Source: Thermoproteus uzoniensis 768-20 (GTDB lineage: Archaea > Thermoproteota > Thermoprotei > Thermoproteales > Thermoproteaceae). Taken from it: a stretch of 64,000 bases of DNA. The translations under genes were made by a program, and so were the position numbers. The stretch spans positions 1,310,622-1,374,621 of the forward strand of contig NC_015315.1 of the NCBI RefSeq assembly GCF_000193375.1, in the 5' to 3' direction. Shown in pieces: positions 2,185 through 43,548 of this stretch. The notes below the pieces were generated by a model, which saw nothing but the letters and a program-made list of their open reading frames with translations, was not told where the DNA came from and ran no database searches. The number at the start of each line of letters is the position of its first letter. The first letter of the stretch is position 1.

Positions 2185-3657
2185 GTGAACAGGGCCTTAG
2201 CCCTGGCCGGGGTCGTAATACTGGTGGTCGCCTTAACCGCAGTGATGTTTATCGCGATGCCTAGGCCCATTAAGCATAGGTACATTAACTCAACCACGTC
2301 TACAGGGTTTAAGGTTAGCGGATTGACGGCAACGCCGATAAAGCACGTAGTCATAATAATTCTCGAGAACCACGCCTTTGACAACATTTACGGCCTTTAC
2401 CCATTCGGCACCCCACCCATAATTAACAGCATTACGCTGTCCCTAATGAGGCCCGTTGGCCTTAACCTAAGCGTCGTTATTAACGGCGTTAAGCCATATT
2501 ACGCAAACTCCGTTATCTTAAAGGACCCCTGGGAGGGATACGTAAACTACCACACTGACTGGGACTTGGGGGCTATGGACGGCTTCGTTAGGGGTTCAGG
2601 CCCACAGTCCATGGCATACCTATCCTACCAGCAGGTTCCCCTACTCTGGGACTACGCCGAGGAGTACGTGCTTGCCGACAACTTCTTCTCCCCGGATCTA
2701 GCAACAACCACACCCAATAGGATATCCTACCTGGTGGGCTTCCCCGTACCGGCCTTTGGCGCCAACAGCGACTGCGTCATAGACTTCCAGGAGACTATAC
2801 TGTACCAATTGACCCAATATAACATATCCTGGGCCTACTTCGACTACGGCTATAGACCTGGGCAAGCTCTACCGCCGTATCCGCTATCCCTAATAAAGGG
2901 GGCCGGCAAGTATAGTAGCTACTACTTCAACACCTCGGTATTCCTACAAGACCTGAGGGATGGCGAACTACCCAGCGTCTCCTTCCTAATGTTCACCGGC
3001 GGCAATGGCCATGACGAACACTCGGCCCTAGACCTACACCCCCCATTCAACCTAACCCAGGGGCAGGTTAACTTGGCATACTTCGTAGACGCCATAGAGG
3101 AGAGCCCATATTGGAACAGCACGGTGATCTTCATCACGTTCGATGAAGGTGGTGGATTCTACGACCAAGTACCGCCCCCGATAATATACAACTATGGTAT
3201 AGACCCAGCCTGTGAGGATGGTTACCTAAGTAGGCTCGGTTTAAGAAACTACAATGTGCTTGGAGAGAGGGTGCCACTACTCATAATATCACCCTACGCC
3301 AAGGAGGGCTGGGTGGATAACTACAGTATTTCAGGATACACGTTGCTGGCCTTTATCGACTATAACTGGCACCTACCCTACCTAACCCCGATAGTGGCCA
3401 ACTCAAACCTAGCAGGCCTACTGGCTGCCTTCGACTTCAACCAACCCCCAAGGCCGCCCATAGTGATAACCCCAACGAATTGGACATACCCAATACCGCT
3501 ACAGTACCCAATACACTACGGCTACACTGCGACCGTCAAGGGCAACTACACCGGCTATGAAATACTATACAGAATGGGTTTGATAAGTAGTAGTATATAT
3601 AAATATATAATAGAATACAACAACACACGAACTAGTATCATTGGATCAAGTAATTAA
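2185..3657 (+). CDS. Secreted phosphoesterase (acid phosphatase / phospholipase C family)
   Basis: 490 residues with a GTG start and an N-terminal hydrophobic helix (residues 2-24) that serves as signal or anchor. The family motif ENHAFDNIYG (about residues 59-68) matches the ENHSFD signature of the phosphoesterase family (PF04185), and later metal-site motifs are present (GHDEHS near 275 and TFDEGGGFYD near 319). Members hydrolyse phosphate monoesters or phospholipids outside the cell. It is co-transcribed with the beta-helix gene. Codons such as cct, gtt, att and agg, and frequent 'ttaac' and 'cctaac' strings, differ from the surrounding GC-ending style, which points to a foreign origin. 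Confidence 0.75.
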   Translation: MNRALALAGVVILVVALTAVMFIAMPRPIKHRYINSTTSTGFKVSGLTATPIKHVVIIILENHAFDNIYGLYPFGTPPIINSITLSLMRPVGLNLSVVINGVKPYYANSVILKDPWEGYVNYHTDWDLGAMDGFVRGSGPQSMAYLSYQQVPLLWDYAEEYVLADNFFSPDLATTTPNRISYLVGFPVPAFGANSDCVIDFQETILYQLTQYNISWAYFDYGYRPGQALPPYPLSLIKGAGKYSSYYFNTSVFLQDLRDGELPSVSFLMFTGGNGHDEHSALDLHPPFNLTQGQVNLAYFVDAIEESPYWNSTVIFITFDEGGGFYDQVPPPIIYNYGIDPACEDGYLSRLGLRNYNVLGERVPLLIISPYAKEGWVDNYSISGYTLLAFIDYNWHLPYLTPIVANSNLAGLLAAFDFNQPPRPPIVITPTNWTYPIPLQYPIHYGYTATVKGNYTGYEILYRMGLISSSIYKYIIEYNNTRTSIIGSSN

Positions 3658-35614: not shown

Positions 35615-36344
35615 TGCCCTTATCAACTATATAGAGCACTGTCTGGACCCACCCCGCCAGCCTGCCCAGCTTGTCGGCGGCGCGCGCCCTTAGGCAGACA
35701 GACTGTAGGGGACAGACAGCGCAGTCGTATCTAGCGCAGTAGCTCTTGTCGGGCGGCCTCCCCGTCAGTCCCAGACGCGGCGCCTGCCTCATGAAATGCT
35801 TGTCGACTGGAACCGCCGAGGCGTCCCCCGTGAAGAGGAGGTAGAGGTCGGCGACTTTAGGCCCCACGCCCGGGATCTTCAAGAGATCGGCTCTGTCCTT
35901 AGGCCTAGCCGATAGGTAGGCCCTCAGAGCGGCCGGCAGACGCCTCAGCTGGTAGCTGTTGCCGACAGACGGGGCGAGCTCCGCTATCTCGTCGAGGCGC
36001 TCGCTACGGGAAAACAACGCGTGCGTCCACCTGAGCACGTTTGTGTGGTACGCGGTGTTCTGTGTGAGGAACGCGGCGACGAAGATCAAGCCCTCGTCCC
36101 CCGGCGATATGGAGATGCCTACGCAGTCCCCGTACCGATCTAACAGCTCCCGCACGGCCCTCTCCACGTCGCTGTCCACCTCGCCCACGTAGCGCCATGG
36201 ATCGTACCATCTACCCGAAAGGTACGGATCGGCCGATGCGTCCAAGCCCTTCCTCACGCCGAACGCCTTGACGTAGGAGTCCCCCCTCCTCTCCAAGAGG
36301 GTCAACGTCAGGCTGGGGTATAGGGTCAGCTCCAGGCAGTTCAT
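35589..36344 (-). CDS. HhH-GPD DNA glycosylase with a Fe-S cluster motif
   Basis: About 251 residues from ATG 36344. The helix-hairpin-helix 'LLKIPGVGPKVADLYLLF' is followed by 'AVPVDKHFMRQ', where the Asp is the catalytic one of the superfamily. The C-terminal 'CARYDCAVCPLQSVC' provides four cysteines spaced as in endonuclease III/MutY clusters. The N-terminal half is similar in layout to OGG-type glycosylases. It removes damaged or mismatched bases; the exact substrate is unclear. It overlaps the upstream radical SAM gene by 4 bases (ATGA), so the two form one operon. Confidence 0.72.
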   Translation of the reverse strand: MNCLELTLYPSLTLTLLERRGDSYVKAFGVRKGLDASADPYLSGRWYDPWRYVGEVDSDVERAVRELLDRYGDCVGISISPGDEGLIFVAAFLTQNTAYHTNVLRWTHALFSRSERLDEIAELAPSVGNSYQLRRLPAALRAYLSARPKDRADLLKIPGVGPKVADLYLLFTGDASAVPVDKHFMRQAPRLGLTGRPPDKSYCARYDCAVCPLQSVCLRARAADKLGRLAGWVQTVLYIVDKGITRETRRS

Positions 36345-37108
36345 ATCATTGACTGCGGCACGCCGCTCGGCGCCACGGCCCGTAGAGGCCGCAGGCCTCT
36401 GGCCCTCATCAGCTTGACAACGTGCGGGTAGAGGATGACGAGCTCCTCGTCTAGGCATTCGGCCAACGCCTCGTGTATGCCGCTTAGAGCCTCCTTGAGC
36501 CTCCTCACCCCGTCGTCGGTGGAGAAGCCTATCATGGCCGCCGCGTAGACGTCCCTACAGGGGGCCATGCCCGCCTCGACTAAATTCCTCAAGGCGTCCA
36601 GCTGTCTGTAGAAGTAGTGAGGAGGCGACATCGTGATTGCGCCGAACTCCTCGGGAGTAGCCCCCTTTATGGACACCCTCACCACGACGTTGGGAAATCC
36701 GGCCAGCTCCCGCGCCAGCCCTCTATCTATCAATATGCCGTTGGTCTCGACGATAAAGGTATAGCTCTCCGGCACCGATTTCAACACGGCGAGGAGGTGG
36801 CGGGGAGCTATAGTCGGCTCGCCTCCCGAGATCCTCAACTGCGCGATGCCTCTAGACCTGGCCATCTCCGCCAGGCGGCGGGCCACCACGTCGGGCCTCA
36901 TGAAGTCGCCCACGTCCAGCCTAAACGAGCTGTTCCGCCAAGCCCAACACATGCCGCAACGGAGGTTGCAACCGACGACGTCGGCCGTGGCGATGCCGCC
37001 ATACCATCTATCCGCTCTGAATCTAAAATAGCGGCGCAACACGGCGCCTCCCTCCTCCCTCACGGAATATTTGAGCACCAGCCGCGTAAGCACCTCTGGG
37101 TCTATCAC
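36341..37108 (-). CDS. Radical SAM protein
   Basis: 255 residues. Cluster motif CNLRCGMC (about 46-53) and SAM-binding 'RISGGEPTI' (about 91-99) are intact, as is 'FIVETNGILID'. It resembles the archaeal pyruvate-formate-lyase-activating-like or unclassified radical SAM group; the substrate is unknown. The translational coupling with the HhH glycosylase may suggest a role in nucleic acid modification or repair, as inference only. Confidence 0.7.
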   Translation of the reverse strand: MIDPEVLTRLVLKYSVREEGGAVLRRYFRFRADRWYGGIATADVVGCNLRCGMCWAWRNSSFRLDVGDFMRPDVVARRLAEMARSRGIAQLRISGGEPTIAPRHLLAVLKSVPESYTFIVETNGILIDRGLARELAGFPNVVVRVSIKGATPEEFGAITMSPPHYFYRQLDALRNLVEAGMAPCRDVYAAAMIGFSTDDGVRRLKEALSGIHEALAECLDEELVILYPHVVKLMRARGLRPLRAVAPSGVPQSMI

Positions 37109-37288
37109 AGAGCTAGCTTAGGCACTGCGAGATAACCTTTTTCCCGGAGTTGAAGATCTTCCTACCCGAGCGCCGTCAAAAACCGGCCTACGCCGCTCCT
37201 AGCCGAGTGGCGACGCAAACGTCAGCGGGCGAGCCGACGATGGCACTAGTGGAAAACTTAAAAATGTGAAATATATGTAAAGAGTAGG

Positions 37289-37414
37289 GCCCCGGTGGCT
37301 TAGCCCGGTAGAGCGCCCTGGGGCTTAGCCCCGCGTAGGCCTTGTAAGCGGGAGGTCCCGTCAGGCCCCCGCCAGGGGGTCTGGGATAAGGTTCAAATCC
37401 CGGCCGGGGCTCCA
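37289..37414 (+). tRNA. tRNA-Thr(UGU) with two introns, CCA encoded
   Basis: Acceptor GCCCCGG pairs with CCGGGGC, discriminator T, and CCA is encoded at 37412-37414. The anticodon loop is CTTGTAA (TGT). Removing 20 bases at 37319-37338 (between positions 29 and 30) restores the anticodon stem CCCGC/GCGGG. Removing 29 bases at 37361-37389 (between positions 51 and 52) restores the T arm CCGGG-TTCAAAT-CCCGG. The mature length is then 74 nt before CCA. A TATA-like cttaaaaatg lies about 26-35 bases upstream. The downstream mobile element begins right after the CCA. Confidence 0.9.
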
Positions 37415-38767
37415 TCCGATCTTCATGAGGATAACGCTATTAGTGTCAAAAAGGGGGATTTGGGATAACAACTTCTTTGTTGCTGGCTTGTTTCTACCGG
37501 CTAGATATCTCGCAACGGCTTCTCTCAACGTCGGATCCCTCTTAACTAGCTCTTTCAACTCTCTCCACGGTATATACGCCACATACCAACGCCTATCAAC
37601 GTACATCTTGGCGTGAGGCTTTAGGGCGTTTAGGGCCTTCTCCGCCTCTTCTCTCTCAGCGAAATACCTCACGGCGTGTAGTGTCTTAGCCGATAGATGG
37701 AGGCGCATCACCACCCCCTTGATAACTACATACGCGGGATCGAAAGACGGCCTATAATCGGCCAGAGCCTTTAGATACACCCACTTGTGGCTATACAATA
37801 CCTCTAGGAGGACGCCATAACGTCCAACAGACGTAGTTATCTTTTTGGCTAATTCTTTAGCCCTCCTTCGGCTAAGTTCAATTTTGCGATAATTATAACT
37901 CCCGCCTAATAAACCGTTAATCATCTCTATATTAACAGCTGTAGAAAGCGCTATTTTCTCCCTCCTGCCGTCCACCACTCCATCGCCGAGATACCACGTC
38001 AATAAAGGCCTGTAGTCGCCCCCGCGTAAAGCCTCCAACGCCATCCTCTGGGCCTCCTCCTTACTCCATTTCTGCGTCCAATCCTTAGCCACGGCATAAA
38101 TCTCTAGAGAGAGGCCGCCGGCATTTATGCCTACTTCAACTACATGTACTCTCATCCAACCAGGCCTAGTAGCAGACCACGCGAAGAGTTGCCACGGCTG
38201 TGTCGTGGCCATCATGGGCCGCCTCTTGTCGGCTGTCTCGTCGCTCGCCCTCCAGCCTAGTTGGAAGGCTTCTACTTCCTCTGGGCTTAGTCCAATACTG
38301 GGGAAGTACAGCTTGGCAGATACGTCGTGTAGAGGTAGTTTAAACACCGGGGCTCTGGTTAACTGTGTATGGATGCAGACCCCGTCGGCGCATATGTGGC
38401 TTACGACTTTGCTCCTCTCTATCACCTCGACGCGGCCCTCCTCCACGGCTCTGCATATCTTTGTCAGCTTTTCTCTCGCCTGCCCCTCAGCCCTATCCAG
38501 TAGCTGGATGAGGCCGTCTACAAACTGTCTAAACCGCGTCGCCGCATCATCTGGCAAAGATAAGGCTCTAGGCACTGCCTCGCCTACGTACCGCATGTAC
38601 AGCCTCCACTTCTCGAACAGCGTATCCACAGTGCCGTACAGCACGCCACGCCTCGCAGACTTCTCTAGCACCGCCTCTAACGTCGGCCTTGGCTCCTCTC
38701 CCGACACCGCCCTACATCTCTCCCTCAGCTTCGTCAGCACCTCGTCGACGTCCACATACCTGCCCAT
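37361..38767 (-). CDS. PaRep2b-type protein with a LAGLIDADG-like segment
   Basis: 468 residues resembling Pyrobaculum PaRep2b: 'HDVSAKLYFPSIGLSPEEVEAFQLGWRASDE', 'TTQPWQLFAWSATR' and, centrally, 'LTWYLGDGVVDGRREKIALSTA', which looks like one LAGLIDADG helix of a homing nuclease and its following strand. The last 18 codons run antisense into the 3' part of tRNA-Thr, and the stop TGA is made from the first three bases of tRNA intron 2, so the original C-terminus was probably altered at insertion. It follows PaRep2a with a 12-base gap. The DNA-cleavage role is inferred. Confidence 0.65.
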   Translation of the reverse strand: MGRYVDVDEVLTKLRERCRAVSGEEPRPTLEAVLEKSARRGVLYGTVDTLFEKWRLYMRYVGEAVPRALSLPDDAATRFRQFVDGLIQLLDRAEGQAREKLTKICRAVEEGRVEVIERSKVVSHICADGVCIHTQLTRAPVFKLPLHDVSAKLYFPSIGLSPEEVEAFQLGWRASDETADKRRPMMATTQPWQLFAWSATRPGWMRVHVVEVGINAGGLSLEIYAVAKDWTQKWSKEEAQRMALEALRGGDYRPLLTWYLGDGVVDGRREKIALSTAVNIEMINGLLGGSYNYRKIELSRRRAKELAKKITTSVGRYGVLLEVLYSHKWVYLKALADYRPSFDPAYVVIKGVVMRLHLSAKTLHAVRYFAEREEAEKALNALKPHAKMYVDRRWYVAYIPWRELKELVKRDPTLREAVARYLAGRNKPATKKLLSQIPLFDTNSVILMKIGWSPGRDLNLIPDPLAGA

Positions 38768-38779
38768 ACCCCACCCGGC

Positions 38780-39307
38780 TCACCTCTTTACGTGGAATTG
38801 ATAATCCACCCGCCGCGCCTTCTGGTCAGGTGGAGGTCTGTCTACATACGCCTCCGGGTTTGAGCCGTTTTCTAAACAGCCGCTGATTGTCTCTGCTAGG
38901 CGAGTAGAGGCGTCAGCTAGCGGGGAGTACACGTGGGCGTACTTCGCCGCAACCGCTGGCTCCTCCACTGGCTTTTTCGCACACCTCGCCCTCGGGAATA
39001 CGGGAGGTTTTCTCGGCCTTGCCGAAGGCCTCCTTCTGTTGTACGGCGGTTTATATACCGCATATAGCCAAGCCTCCCACATCTCCGCCAGCCGTCTGTT
39101 GTGCGTATAGGCCAGGATAATGAACATATCGGCCTTCAGCCCCCTCTTCGCCGCAGAGGAGTGGCCGCGGAGGTGCATGTATACGCGGTCGTAGTAGCCG
39201 CTACGCTTCCCCACGCCTACATACGCCGCACGTCCACCCGCCATAGCCAGGTAGACGTAGTGGATAACAGCCACATCTACGACAAGGCTTAAAGCCAACT
39301 GCGGCAT
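38780..39307 (-). CDS. PaRep2a-type protein with a GIY-YIG-like N-terminal domain
   Basis: 175 residues. 'HYVYLAMAGGRAAYVGVGK' then 'RVYMHLRGH' and 'AEMWEAWLYAVYKPPYNRR' follow the order of GIY-YIG nucleases (two Tyr/Gly strands, catalytic Arg, Glu, and the Pro/Asn end). The C-terminal half is basic, then Pro/Ala-rich. It corresponds to the PaRep2a family that accompanies PaRep2b in Pyrobaculum. Its ATG lies within one arm of the long inverted repeat (39300-39420), and the 24-bp iterons cover its promoter region, which suggests autoregulation. Confidence 0.62.
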   Translation of the reverse strand: MPQLALSLVVDVAVIHYVYLAMAGGRAAYVGVGKRSGYYDRVYMHLRGHSSAAKRGLKADMFIILAYTHNRRLAEMWEAWLYAVYKPPYNRRRPSARPRKPPVFPRARCAKKPVEEPAVAAKYAHVYSPLADASTRLAETISGCLENGSNPEAYVDRPPPDQKARRVDYQFHVKR

Positions 39308-39420
39308 TCAACTACTCCTTCTACATTTTACCTGACTTAACACCGTACGTTTTTCCCGAATCAGGAAAAATGTCCGATTTTAACTCAGGTAAAATGTAGA
39401 AGGAGTAGTTGAATGCCGCA
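39300..39420. repeat. Perfect 36-bp inverted repeat (hairpin) at the PaRep2a start
   Basis: Bases 39300-39335 are the exact reverse complement of 39385-39420, with a 49-base spacer. The left arm contains the PaRep2a start codon; the right arm mirrors it and opens a short dead frame. The arms include iteron units u2 and u4 and extend beyond them, so a whole block seems to have been copied in inverted orientation. Confidence 0.9.
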
Positions 39421-39605
39421 TTGTTAACAATCGGCGAGGTAGTTGAAACGTATGTTAACGTTGTGTGTTATTCAAGCGGCGTTACATTTCGTCTGACGTA
39501 TTTCCTGAGTTAAAATCGGATATTTTTCCTGATTCAGGAAGTACATCCGACGCAGGGTCAGGAAATGTGTCCGACATTGAGTCAGGAAGAGTGTCCGACA
39601 TGCCT
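39312..39605. repeat. Nine 24-bp iterons in two outward-facing dyads
   Basis: Units starting TCAGG(A/T)AA..TGTCCGA repeat with an exact 24-base period. Minus-strand units start at 39335 and 39359, plus-strand units at 39361 and 39385, minus-strand units at 39508 and 39532, and plus-strand units at 39534, 39558 and 39582. Each group diverges from a single central base (39360 and 39533), making short palindromes there. Two unit types alternate; the units at 39361 and 39532 differ at one base, and those at 39335 and 39385 are identical. No spacers separate the units, so this is not a CRISPR array. The layout suggests protein-binding iterons of an origin or transposition site. Confidence 0.85.
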
Positions 39606-39621
39606 ACACAGTATCACTGAC

Positions 39622-39708
39622 AGATTTAGGACTGGCAACGCGTCGTGGTAGTTGAAAGAGGGATGCACCGAGATCGGTTCTAAATCTTTAGATTTAGAAC
39701 TGGCAAAG
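39622..39708. repeat. Direct repeat pair with an embedded inverted repeat
   Basis: agatttaggactggcaacg (39622-39640) recurs as agatttagaactggcaaag (39690-39708). The second copy is preceded by its inverse, gttctaaatct (39677-39687), giving 11-bp arms with a 2-base centre. These follow directly after the iterons, inside the tRNA-bounded insertion. Confidence 0.7.
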
Positions 39709-39765
39709 ACGAGATCGGCGAAGCTTGACATACGCCGATCGTTGATTCATAAATAGGAGGTGTGT

Positions 39766-40113
39766 TTATGCACCCATGGGCCAGTTGGTGCCCGCCCCGC
39801 CTCCCGCGAGGGCTCCGGGAGGCGACGCTGTGTTCAAATACGCGTCTGCAGAAGGGGCGGCGCCAATCCTCAGGGCGGCCCCGCCCCGGGAGCCGCCGGC
39901 GACTCGGGGCCCCGTGCCCCCGGGACGCCCGGAGAGCAGAAAGGGGGTACAGACCTGTGCCGGTGCGGCTCTGAGATAGTACGCCATGGCCGCCAGGAAG
40001 CCGCCTATGCCAGAAAACAAGTCCAGAACCACAGCCGATTTGAACATGCGCGCCGCATCCAACAGAAGAATAAAGACGTTGGCCATGGCCAGCGGCAACG
40101 CCGCATCGGCCAC
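39766..40113 (-). CDS. Hypothetical small protein of the element with hydrophobic segments
   Basis: An open frame of 115 codons from GTG with two hydrophobic stretches (residues about 5-20 and 27-46: 'AVVLDLFSGIGGFLAAMAYYL') and a Gly/Ala/Pro-rich tail. The tail is low-complexity and may not be coding. If real it is a membrane protein of the inserted element. The 'DLFSGIGGF' string is a chance match to cytosine methyltransferase motif I. Confidence 0.25.
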   Translation of the reverse strand: MADAALPLAMANVFILLLDAARMFKSAVVLDLFSGIGGFLAAMAYYLRAAPAQVCTPFLLSGRPGGTGPRVAGGSRGGAALRIGAAPSADAYLNTASPPGALAGGGAGTNWPMGA

Positions 40114-40128
40114 GGCTTCAGTAAAGAA

Positions 40129-40188
40129 GGTGAGCGGGAGGTCCCGGGTTCGAAAGGGTCGTCCCCGAATGTCCCGGCCGGGGCTCCA
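40129..40188 (+). other. tRNA-Thr(GGU) 3' fragment with an intron (insertion right boundary)
   Basis: From ggtga (positions 34-38 of a Thr GGU tRNA) the sequence continues with anticodon-stem 3' strand GCGGG, AGGTC, T stem CCGGG, T loop TTCGAA, then 17 extra bases (40155-40171, agggtcgtccccgaatg), then T, CCCGG, CCGGGGC, T and CCA (40186-40188). Splicing between positions 59 and 60 restores a normal T arm. No matching 5' half is found upstream. The 3' end is shared with the intact tRNA-Thr at 37289, but the T loop and intron differ, so it comes from another isoacceptor. Confidence 0.75.
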
Positions 40189-40623
40189 TCAGATTTCTAC
40201 TCTGGCTCTGGGCTTTACGGCGTAGCCTCTCCTCAGCGTCAGCTCCCTTACACTATACAGAAGTCTGCCGACCGCGATGGGCTTCCCGCCTTCGTCGACC
40301 ACGAAGACCTCGGCGTTGGGCCTCAACCCGCGCGAATACGACTTGACGAACTTAGCAGGGACGCTACGTCCCTGCAAGACGAACTTGGCAGTCTCCCCGT
40401 CGACGACGACGTATGGGCCCTTCATGTAGGGGGCCGCGTCCGCGAGGGGGAGCAAATAGCCGTCGTTGTTCCTGAAGGCGAATATCGGCTTGCCTTCGTA
40501 ATATATATATTTTATTCTTTTAGATTTATTGTATTTTATTTCTAGTTTATTTTTATCAATATCAATATTTTTATATCCATATATATATGTCAAGAGGCCG
40601 TAGGCCTGTTCTTCCGGCGTCAT
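40189..40623 (-). CDS. PUA-domain RNA-binding protein
   Basis: About 144 residues from ATG 40623, chosen because gcattaat (40649-40656 complement) lies about 26-33 bases upstream. The C-terminal 75 residues form a PUA domain: 'GPYVVVDGETAKFVLQGRSVPAKFVKSYSRGLRPNAEVFVVDEGGKPIAVGRL'. PUA domains bind tRNA or rRNA modification substrates. The transglycosylase at 43.5 kb lacks its own PUA, so this may be its partner in trans (inference). An AT-rich patch lies at 40500-40590. The stop codon abuts the tRNA fragment's CCA. Confidence 0.78.
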   Translation of the reverse strand: MTPEEQAYGLLTYIYGYKNIDIDKNKLEIKYNKSKRIKYIYYEGKPIFAFRNNDGYLLPLADAAPYMKGPYVVVDGETAKFVLQGRSVPAKFVKSYSRGLRPNAEVFVVDEGGKPIAVGRLLYSVRELTLRRGYAVKPRARVEI

Positions 40624-40652
40624 GCTTTTAACCATGTATCGGATCTGTATTA

Positions 40653-41138
40653 ATGCTGTATTGCGATATCTGCGGCGCCCCGATAGAGGGACAACCCTAT
40701 ATAATAAAGCTGGACAACGCGGTCCTCCACGTCTGTAGGCGCTGTGCGGCGTCGTACGGCGCCGTCTCGGCCTCGGCGGCCGCGGAGCCGCAGAGACGCG
40801 TGGCCCCGCCTCCTCCGCCCAGGAGAGCGCCGGCTCCTAAGAGAGCGGCCGATAGGTACGAGGTCGTCGAGGAGTACGCCGAGGTTATAAAGAGGGCGCG
40901 GGAGTCCATGGGGCTCAGCAGAGAGGCGCTGGCGTCCTATATAGGCGTCAAGGAGAGCGTGTTGAGGCGCGTCGAGAGCGGCCAGCTGGTGCCCGACGTC
41001 CAGTTGGCCAGGAAGCTGGAGAAGGCTCTCGGGGTCAAGCTATTGGTGCCGGCCCAGCAGGGCGAGGCCGCGACGGGCGCGCCTGCCAAGAGGGAGCTCA
41101 CTCTAGGCGATGTGGCGGAGGTGAGGGATGAGGAATAG
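40653..41138 (+). CDS. mbf1: MBF1-type transcription factor
   Basis: 161 residues: N-terminal zinc ribbon (CDICG ... CRRC), Pro/Ala-rich linker, then a Cro-type HTH (about 88-140) with 'ARESMGLSREALASYIGVKESVLRRVESGQLVPD'. Multiprotein bridging factor 1 is conserved in archaea and binds the small ribosomal subunit. ttttaacc (40626-40633) precedes the ATG by 20-27 bases. The 3' end overlaps hflX by 11 bases, starting a run of four coupled genes. Confidence 0.85.
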   Translation: MLYCDICGAPIEGQPYIIKLDNAVLHVCRRCAASYGAVSASAAAEPQRRVAPPPPPRRAPAPKRAADRYEVVEEYAEVIKRARESMGLSREALASYIGVKESVLRRVESGQLVPDVQLARKLEKALGVKLLVPAQQGEAATGAPAKRELTLGDVAEVRDEE

Positions 41139-42330
41139 GGCCCTTCTGGCGTATGTAGGCCCCAAGGATAGGAGGCTCGGCAGGAGGCTTGCGGAGTTCG
41201 AGGCACTGGCCGAGGTGGCCGGCTACGAGGTGGCCGGCGTCGTGACGCAGTTCGGCGAGAGGGACTCCCGTTTCTATCTAGGCAGGGGGAAGCTCGACGA
41301 GGTGGCCGGCATGGACTTCGACGTGTTCGTGGCGTACCACGAGCTCACCCCTCTCCAGACGTATAATCTGAGGAGGAGGCTGGGCGTCGAGGTTATGGAT
41401 AGAGTGCTCTTGATCCTCAAGATATTCGAGCGGAGGGCCGGCAGCATCGAGTCCAAGTTGCAGATAGAGCTGGCGGCGCTGAGGTATCGGCTTCCTCTAG
41501 TTAAGGAGTATCTCAGGAGGGCCAAGATGGGCGAGCAGATAGGCTATATGGGCGCCGGCGAGTATGCTGTTGACGCCTACTATAGGCATATGGTGAGCAG
41601 GATCTCCTACATAAAGAGGAGGCTCGACAAGATGAGGGAGGATAGGGCTAGGCTGATGAGGAGGCGTAGGGACTTCGGCGTGCCCGAAGTCGTGTTGACG
41701 GGGTACACCAGCGTGGGGAAGACCACGCTCTTCAATCGATTAACCGCGGAGCACAAGTACGTTGACGGCAGGCCCTTCGCCACGCTCGACACGTACTCGC
41801 GCCGTATAAGCCTGTGGGGGAAAGAAATCGTGTTGACGGACACCATCGGCTTCATAGAGGATCTGCCGCCCGTCTTGATAGAGTCGTTCTACTCCACTCT
41901 CCAGGAGGTCGCCGACGCGGACCTGGTCCTTCTGCTGGCCGATGCGTCGGACGACGAGGAGGAGTTCGCGAGGGAGCTCCAGACGTCTATCGACGTGTTG
42001 TCGACAATCGGCGTGCACAAGGAGCGGGTTCTCCCCGTCTTGAGCAAGGTAGACGCCGTAGGCCTCCCGGAGCTCGTCAGGAAGGCCGCGATTCTCAGGA
42101 AGCACTTCGCCTTCTTCGCGCCCGTCTCGGCCTTGACGGGCTTCGGCGTCGACACGCTTAAGCTCTTGCTCTTCTGGAAGACGCCGGGCTACGCGATATA
42201 CGAGGCGAGGCCTCCCGTCGGGGGGCTCGTGCTGGACGGCAAGTCGTATCTGCCGGTCAAGATAAGCGAGGTCAAGCGTTTCGAGAGCTCGTCTCTTAAT
42301 TTATATACCGAACTGAGGAGAGTTCTGTGA
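41128..42330 (+). CDS. hflX: GTPase HflX
   Basis: 400 residues: N-terminal HflX domain with 'RDSRFYLGRGKLDEVA' and a coiled coil 'ESKLQIELAALRYRLP', then the G domain with G1 'GYTSVGKTTLFN', G2 'FATLDTYSR', G3 'DTIGFIEDLPP' and G4 'LSKVDAVG'. HflX binds ribosomes and helps split or rescue them under stress, especially heat. It overlaps both neighbours by a few bases. Confidence 0.9.
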   Translation: MRNRALLAYVGPKDRRLGRRLAEFEALAEVAGYEVAGVVTQFGERDSRFYLGRGKLDEVAGMDFDVFVAYHELTPLQTYNLRRRLGVEVMDRVLLILKIFERRAGSIESKLQIELAALRYRLPLVKEYLRRAKMGEQIGYMGAGEYAVDAYYRHMVSRISYIKRRLDKMREDRARLMRRRRDFGVPEVVLTGYTSVGKTTLFNRLTAEHKYVDGRPFATLDTYSRRISLWGKEIVLTDTIGFIEDLPPVLIESFYSTLQEVADADLVLLLADASDDEEEFARELQTSIDVLSTIGVHKERVLPVLSKVDAVGLPELVRKAAILRKHFAFFAPVSALTGFGVDTLKLLLFWKTPGYAIYEARPPVGGLVLDGKSYLPVKISEVKRFESSSLNLYTELRRVL

Positions 42331-42863
42331 GCGAGGAGAGGCTAAACGCCTACCTCATCATGGTGGAGCGTAGCGTCTCCTTCGAGTTCAACAGCCCCGA
42401 ATACGGCAAGCTCGCCCGAAAGATGGTGGAGATGCTTTATTCCAGGAAGGAGCAACTCTCGGACGACCGGATAGCTATCTTGATGAACATATCGACCGCC
42501 GAGGCCAGGAGGATACTCCAGTTCCTCTCGAAGACGAATATGATAGGGGTCGTCAAGACGACGACTCCGGACTACCGAGTCGAGTACACGTGGTATGTTG
42601 ACGATGTGGTGATAACGAACGCCATAAAGAAGAGGATAGAGCTCGTCTCCGGGAAGCTGGCCCTCCTCGTGCGGGCCCTGGCCGAGGGGACCTACTACGT
42701 CTGCCCGAACTGCCACAGGCGCTACTCGCTCGACGAGGAGCTAGCCTACAACGGCATATGCCCTATATGTAAGGTCCAGCTAATTTATATAAATAATATT
42801 GATGAAATAAATAGAGTAACTAAAATCCTCGAAAAACTAGAGAGATATGCGAGTAGTATTTAA
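42327..42863 (+). CDS. tfe: Transcription factor E alpha subunit
   Basis: 178 residues: N-terminal winged helix (about 5-100) with 'YSRKEQLSDDRIAILMNISTAEARRILQFL', then a zinc ribbon 'CPNCHRRYSLDEE...CPICK'. TFE stabilises the open complex of archaeal RNA polymerase. The last about 25 codons are AT-rich and encode I/N/E-rich sequence. It overlaps the PAC2 gene by 17 bases. Confidence 0.88.
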   Translation: MSEERLNAYLIMVERSVSFEFNSPEYGKLARKMVEMLYSRKEQLSDDRIAILMNISTAEARRILQFLSKTNMIGVVKTTTPDYRVEYTWYVDDVVITNAIKKRIELVSGKLALLVRALAEGTYYVCPNCHRRYSLDEELAYNGICPICKVQLIYINNIDEINRVTKILEKLERYASSI

Positions 42864-43548
42864 TATAACCAAGCCGTTTACAAGAGAGATCTTCGTCACG
42901 GGCTTCCACGGCGTAGGGATAGTCGGCCACATAGCGGTCAAGCACCTATCGAGGAACTGCGACGTCGTGGGCTACGTGCGCTACAAGAAGATGCCGCCTG
43001 TAATCGCCTACGAGGGCGACCGGCTGGCGCTCCAGTCGGAGATATTCTCCTGCGGCAGAGTGGCCGGCGTCGTCAACAACTACGGCCTCGTCGACGAGGC
43101 GATGTACGACTTCGTCGAGGCGCTCTCCGACTGGGTCGTCAGAAGCGGGTTCAAACTCGCAGTGCTCTTCGGCGGGCTGGACGGCAGATTTAGGCGGGAG
43201 CCCGGCGATCTGTTGAGGATCGCCTACACGTCGTCCTACATAAAGGCCGGCTATCCCCTCGAGGGCAGGCGGCTGGAGCAGGGGTTACAGATAGTTGGCC
43301 CTCTAGGGCTTCTCCTGTCCTATTTCGAGATGAGGGGCTTCCCTGCCTTGGTCATCCTGCCCTATGCGGACAAGCCCGCGGATCCCCAGGCGGCCAGCGT
43401 CGCCCTCGACCACTTCGGCAAGCTCTTCGACATAAGGATTGACACAGCAGATCTGAGGCAACTGGCCGAGGAGCTGGAGAGGGAATATGCCGAGGTTAAA
43501 CGCCAGCTTGAGGAGACTAGGAGGGAGGAGTCGCGGTACTATATATAG
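42847..43548 (+). CDS. PAC2 family protein (proteasome-assembly-chaperone-like)
   Basis: 233 residues. 'TGFHGVGIVGHIAVKHLSR' and 'VLFGGLDGRF', with 'GPLGLLLSYFEMRGFPALVILPYA' later, match the archaeal PAC2/DUF75 family related to eukaryotic proteasome assembly chaperone 2. The C-terminal coiled coil is typical. A proteasome beta subunit is encoded 7 kb downstream. It is the last gene of the mbf1-hflX-tfe run and convergent with tgtA (32-base overlap). Confidence 0.75.
   Translation: MRVVFNITKPFTREIFVTGFHGVGIVGHIAVKHLSRNCDVVGYVRYKKMPPVIAYEGDRLALQSEIFSCGRVAGVVNNYGLVDEAMYDFVEALSDWVVRSGFKLAVLFGGLDGRFRREPGDLLRIAYTSSYIKAGYPLEGRRLEQGLQIVGPLGLLLSYFEMRGFPALVILPYADKPADPQAASVALDHFGKLFDIRIDTADLRQLAEELEREYAEVKRQLEETRREESRYYI

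Follow-up and report, generated by a model that had tools for sequence, protein, structure and literature searches.

Insertion sequences of the IS200/IS605 type carry a Y1 HUH transposase (TnpA), have ends that are recognised as hairpins and produce no target-site duplication. Elements with the RNA-guided nuclease TnpB are presumed to be ancestral to Cas12, and the usual residue at the RuvC-II position of TnpB is Glu; to our knowledge, the mobility enzyme of TnpB elements, where one is known, is a Y1 or a serine TnpA. GIY-YIG nucleases are marked by the GIY...YIG motif together with conserved R, E and N residues. A TnpB homologue and a GIY-YIG protein from one element, the combination met in the family described here, are also known from PGv-1, a eukaryotic viral Fanzor1 element discussed with Tc/mariner, and the accessible part of its description contains no mirrored iteron arrays (PMC3627910). 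PaREP2b of Pyrobaculum, which corresponds to the PaRep2b gene of the present locus, has been called a putative transposon and is thus seen as mobile; arrays, a link to TnpB and a tail are absent from the accessible part of that account (PMC3558965). The open literature, as searched here, yielded no account in which PaRep2a occurs together with TnpB, and none of the arrays reported below.

The locus lies in a 64,000-nucleotide stretch of a Thermoproteus chromosome (the window). Two arrays stand between PaRep2a and a conserved tail, and the whole copy has a tRNA-Thr gene on one side and, on the other, a fragment from the 3' end of that tRNA. The features are summarized in Table 1. Comparison of related loci places the arrays at terminal or subterminal positions in TnpB-type mobile elements. 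The explanation that is favoured here, with moderate confidence, is that they are double-strand protein sites at the element ends, with PaRep2a as the proposed binder and a role in mobility.

Table 1. Coordinates and strands of the features at the locus (window positions unless a locus is named)
Feature	Position	Strand	Remarks
tRNA-Thr(UGU) gene	37289..37414	+	With introns, one in the T arm; abuts PaRep2b
PaRep2b	37361..38767	-	LAGLIDADG-like, in the usual place of TnpB; 3' end enters the tRNA
PaRep2a	38780..39274	-	GIY-YIG-nuclease-like protein; first in-frame ATG 39307, GTG 39274 more likely
TATA-like box of PaRep2a	39289..39293	-	TTTAA, kept among copies; putative function
Arm of array A	39300..39322	-	On the PaRep2a side; mirror copy at 39398-39420
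Array A	39323..39397	.	Four 13-bp units (TCAGGWARAAYGT), order << >>, centre 39360, 24-bp period
Inter-array spacer	39398..39495	.	98 bp, two GTTAAC motifs
Array B	39496..39594	.	Five units, order << >>>, centre 39533
First part of conserved tail	39621..39775	+	TATA-like CATAAATAG at 39748-39756
Omega-RNA-like GC-rich tail	39776..39949	+	Ends GGAGAGCAGAAAGGGG at 39946; copy-specific just after
3'-end fragment of the same tRNA-Thr	40130..40188	+	att-like direct repeat
Inverted-repeat flanks, TnpB-only elements of G001	L129:609-789 and 2164-2340; L130:856-973 and 2304-2421		

Array A has its units at 39323 and 39347 (leftward) and at 39361 and 39385 (rightward), and array B at 39496 and 39520 (leftward) and at 39534, 39558 and 39582 (rightward). 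The nine units with an exact 24-bp period described in the initial annotation are thus borne out, each in its place, as are their mirror order about the single-base centres 39360 (two plus two units) and 39533 (two plus three units) and the one-base difference between the 17-mers at 39361-39377 and 39516-39532. In the repeat unit TCAGGAARAAYGTMCGACGTYRAG the 13-bp core holds about 1.5 bits per position, against 0.9 in the spacer, which takes up 11 of the 24 bases of each array unit and is conserved less than the core. The inverted repeat at centre 39360 extends past the units, positions 39300-39359 and 39361-39420 being 90% complementary. A score for four units at fixed geometry reached 77.0 at centre 39360 and 70.3 at centre 39533, whereas the best unrelated place in the 64 kb scored -13.0 and a reversed-sequence control -17.0. 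The motif model behind this score was built from units of the same array family, and a motif-free pairing test is therefore the independent one: the 60-nt arms at 39360 form 54 of 60 complementary pairs, whereas none of 20 dinucleotide-style shuffles of positions 36001-43000 exceeded 32. Both results lie far above the controls and agree with the earlier view of a maintained structure that did not arise by chance.

In the genomes G003 and G010, which belong to a different genus and are taken to be Pyrobaculum, the 75-bp four-unit block (<< >>) recurs at over 20 sites. The alignment of 24 arrays over 75 columns has zero gaps, and the 24-bp period is kept without indels in homologous loci. An element-specific site had been envisaged from the start and is favoured by the search in relatives: with up to three mismatches, the 27-bp array core occurs twice in G000, six times in G003 and 13 times in G010, with no match in the 42 other Thermoproteales genomes (45 searched), and the backwards control of the core gave zero matches in the same search. 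The three genomes with the array core are exactly those with close PaRep2a copies, the gene being single-copy in the 1.936-Mb Thermoproteus chromosome and multicopy in G003 and G010; G001, presumably P. aerophilum, has a distant PaRep2a only. The double-array module is old, given that the arm-array-spacer-array module of the window is identical at 205 of 270 positions to L110:3090-3363 of G010. Related TCAGGA palindromes of different geometry stand beside TnpB genes of G001 without a neighbouring PaRep2a. The TnpB-only elements of G001 have long flanking inverted repeats of a different (TTGAAC) type, and one end also has a TCAGGA palindrome of other spacing. Array-tail DNA had no match in the plasmid and phage collections, PaRep2b had none in the plasmid collection, and no PaRep2a was found in GTDB contigs or IMG/VR. 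The many unconnected matches of a 15-bp array core in IMG/VR are regarded as chance, and Rfam matches of the array to miRNA/sRNA families, below cut-off, as a palindrome artefact.

In six related loci (L071, L073, L076, L077, L078 and L079) a PaRep2a-TnpB pair lies between two mirror arrays, and the typical element has the order array, PaRep2a, TnpB, array, omega-RNA-like tail. The window copy itself is without TnpB. Cas12f1-like_TNB (PF07282) was matched by all eight aligned TnpB-type proteins (best 5.6e-10). Residues D191, D283 and D363 are invariant in these proteins; D283 occupies the RuvC-II position, which is therefore Asp in all eight, unlike the usual TnpB. The conserved tail extends for about 325 nt outside one array; its last 175 nt are GC-rich, and it terminates in GGAGAGYAGAAAGGGG (given also as GAAAGGGG), with unique sequence beyond. 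In about 20 copies the terminus GGGACGCCCGGAGAGYAGAAAGGGG is followed by copy-specific DNA; the window and its sister locus L070 share the flank. The same terminus was also found after TnpB genes without PaRep2a in G001 and in G006, the latter taken as P. oguniense. The tail is read as a putative omega RNA. Comparison of copies identified compensatory changes in one stem, and the folding energy of the window tail is only modestly better than that of shuffles (z -1.6). CRISPR-like repeats (FQLSFDFR in translation) occur between array and tail in G003 (L104:4365-5080). With the IS200/IS605 and IS1341-like TnpB (OMEGA) elements the family shares the TnpB-type protein with its Cas12f1-like TNB domain and a structured, RNA-like end with fixed terminus and variable flank; it differs from them in that no Y1 TnpA was found and a GIY-YIG-like gene stands in its place, and in having mirrored 24-bp double-strand arrays instead of hairpin ends. 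The TnpB context, the omega-RNA-like tail at 39776-39949 and the arrays flanking whole elements elsewhere had been missed in the initial annotation. Two further pairs of ends were set aside: neither PaRep2a nor a relevant transposase lies between the ends of L110 or between those of L109, which are 8 kb apart and enclose another TnpB-like ORF.

The flanks of L076 (L076:2300-3017 and from 5251) are contiguous in G003:1635150-1636041, which represents a clean empty site. It follows that one boundary of the element lies about 25 bp beyond the array next to TnpB and the other at the tail terminus, so that arrays are terminal at one end and, at the opposite end, subterminal (inside the tail). PaRep2a and TnpB are the only genes of the element so bounded, and no second transposase gene was found within it. 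Target duplication is inconsistent: the 6-bp ACCCCT is present on both sides of the L076 element, 13 bp are unaccounted for or lost at L078, where there is a second, near-clean empty site, and about 1.08 kb are missing at the insertion locus of L077, in a host gene read as an aldehyde ferredoxin oxidoreductase gene. Arrays flank such roughly 2-kb transposon-like units at many chromosomal sites. Three roles had been suggested for the arrays at the outset, and a transposase or integrase binding array comes nearest; we infer protein binding, PaRep2a as the likeliest binder and the role in mobility.

PaRep2a is proposed as the binder because it is the protein most closely linked to the arrays. Its GIY-YIG Pfam match is below Pfam's cut-off for the window protein (E 0.031) and reaches 1.6e-5 in the best relative; the motif residues YVYLA...YVGVGK, the R and E78 are present, and the Asn is absent in some copies. 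The structure model is poor (pLDDT 48) and unusable. In many copies (L006, L011, L014, L016) a TAG occupies the third codon of the frame opened by the usual ATG, so translation probably does not begin at the ATG at 39307; starts at the first ATG are too early, and the start would be the downstream GTG. This GTG at 39274 and the TTTAA box at 39289-39293 are conserved among PaRep2a copies, and in nearly every copy with intact upstream sequence an array lies about 30 bp upstream of the box. The arrays had been thought to cover the PaRep2a promoter; they are indeed upstream of the gene, but not over the core promoter. Such a location would also suit an operator, i.e. arrays that serve primarily as a cooperative repressor site controlling how strongly PaRep2a and the omega-RNA-like transcript are expressed. 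In the window the array region lies between two divergent promoters, the TATA-like box of the tail being found beyond array B, and in L075 a PaRep2b gene is preceded by an array that has the same type of arm. The outer array of L076, however, is located at the 3' end of TnpB, at the element boundary, with no element gene start beside it; the autoregulatory operator suggested at first is the chief rival, but rather unlikely as the primary function. Iteron arrays of repressors and transposase ends in general likewise have an exact period and several equivalent sites; here the order is mirrored about a single base, and arrays are present at both ends of the gene core.

The TnpB-type gene, the long palindromes close to the ends and a right end resembling an omega RNA would also agree with hairpin ends of the IS200/IS605 type, which a Y1 transposase supplied in trans would recognise in single-stranded form. 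The mirror positions of the arrays do not covary: 79.2% are paired compared with a shuffle mean of 81.1% (500 of 500 shuffles at least as high), and the covariation score was equalled or exceeded by 494 of 500 shuffles. The palindrome is for this reason regarded as a set of repeated double-strand protein sites and not as a folded hairpin; the conservation of the half-sites as such points to a protein bound to double-stranded DNA. A hairpin or cruciform for the arrays was accordingly dropped, and with PaRep2a and TnpB alone inside L076, hairpin ends are very improbable.

The tail is located on the TnpB side in L071, L073, L077, L078 and L079, and on the PaRep2a side in L076, L070 and the window; the gene core can therefore lie either way round, and the ends are not uniform. 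This would be explained if the arrays were recombination or inversion sites, at which the core flips relative to the tail and arrays are gained or lost. A single array is present in L070, compared with two in the window. The left half of the L070 array resembles array A (52/60), and the right half matches B at 36/60 and A at 30/60, which looks like a loss or gain of the segment between the centres. The evidence from the right half is weak, however, and passive homologous recombination between repeats may account for the pattern, which leaves dedicated inversion sites a slim chance. The iteron replication origin of an integrated plasmid, also suggested at first, would fit the exact-period repeats and a locus flanked by a tRNA gene and a piece of tRNA 3' end, but is dismissed as extremely improbable: it is largely refuted by the L076 empty site, neither a Rep gene nor a plasmid or phage match was found, and the arrays show mirror order instead of the tandem same-strand iterons with adjacent Rep of plasmid origins and recur at the ends of small transposon-like units.

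According to the favoured explanation of double-strand protein sites at the ends of a family of TnpB-type insertion elements in Thermoproteaceae, each array would present four or five equivalent sites of 24 bp, arranged as mirror images. An element-specific protein, most likely PaRep2a, would bind the arrays and join the ends for excision or insertion, and the protein bound to these same sites would probably also influence the neighbouring promoters of PaRep2a and the omega RNA. Guided by the tail RNA, the 3' end of which would extend into flanking DNA, TnpB might cut empty sites and so favour retention of the element. It is a tentative and rather doubtful further proposal that PaRep2a is a GIY-YIG mobility enzyme which recognises the double-strand arrays and moves TnpB elements without a known transposase, PaRep2b replacing TnpB in some of them.

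The window copy is chimeric: PaRep2b occupies the position that TnpB has in other copies. The LGDG motif of PaRep2b is invariant, the structure model is good (pLDDT 84), and the Foldseek list is rich in LAGLIDADG nucleases, with a best E of only 0.03. L070 of G003 has the same arrangement as the window and a 90% identical PaRep2b, which suggests transfer of the unit between genera. The DNA from the tail terminus to the tRNA fragment (39950-40129) is conserved in L070, i.e. in another genus, and had no Pfam match. In the window, the T loop of the tRNA 3' fragment is split by about 17 nt (AGGGTCGTCCCCGAATG) at 40155-40171, which L070 lacks. A DNA-methyltransferase fragment suggested next to the tail was dropped, as it had no Pfam match. 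PaRep2b genes are found tail-to-tail with tRNA 3' ends at many loci (window 37289-37430; L024, L025, L033, L040, L028, L046, L042 and L126), and the T arms of several of the adjacent tRNAs contain introns of almost the same sequence (GTCAGGCCCCCGCCAGGGGGTCTGGGATAA). One possibility is that PaRep2b acts as a homing-type nuclease directed at the T arm of tRNAs and that the intron represents the resistant form.

The elements described here form a family in which TnpB, or a LAGLIDADG-like protein in its stead, is combined with a GIY-YIG-like protein and with double-strand site arrays of strict spacing. The long-unexplained PaRep2a and PaRep2b families thereby gain a concrete context and a directly testable candidate binding site.
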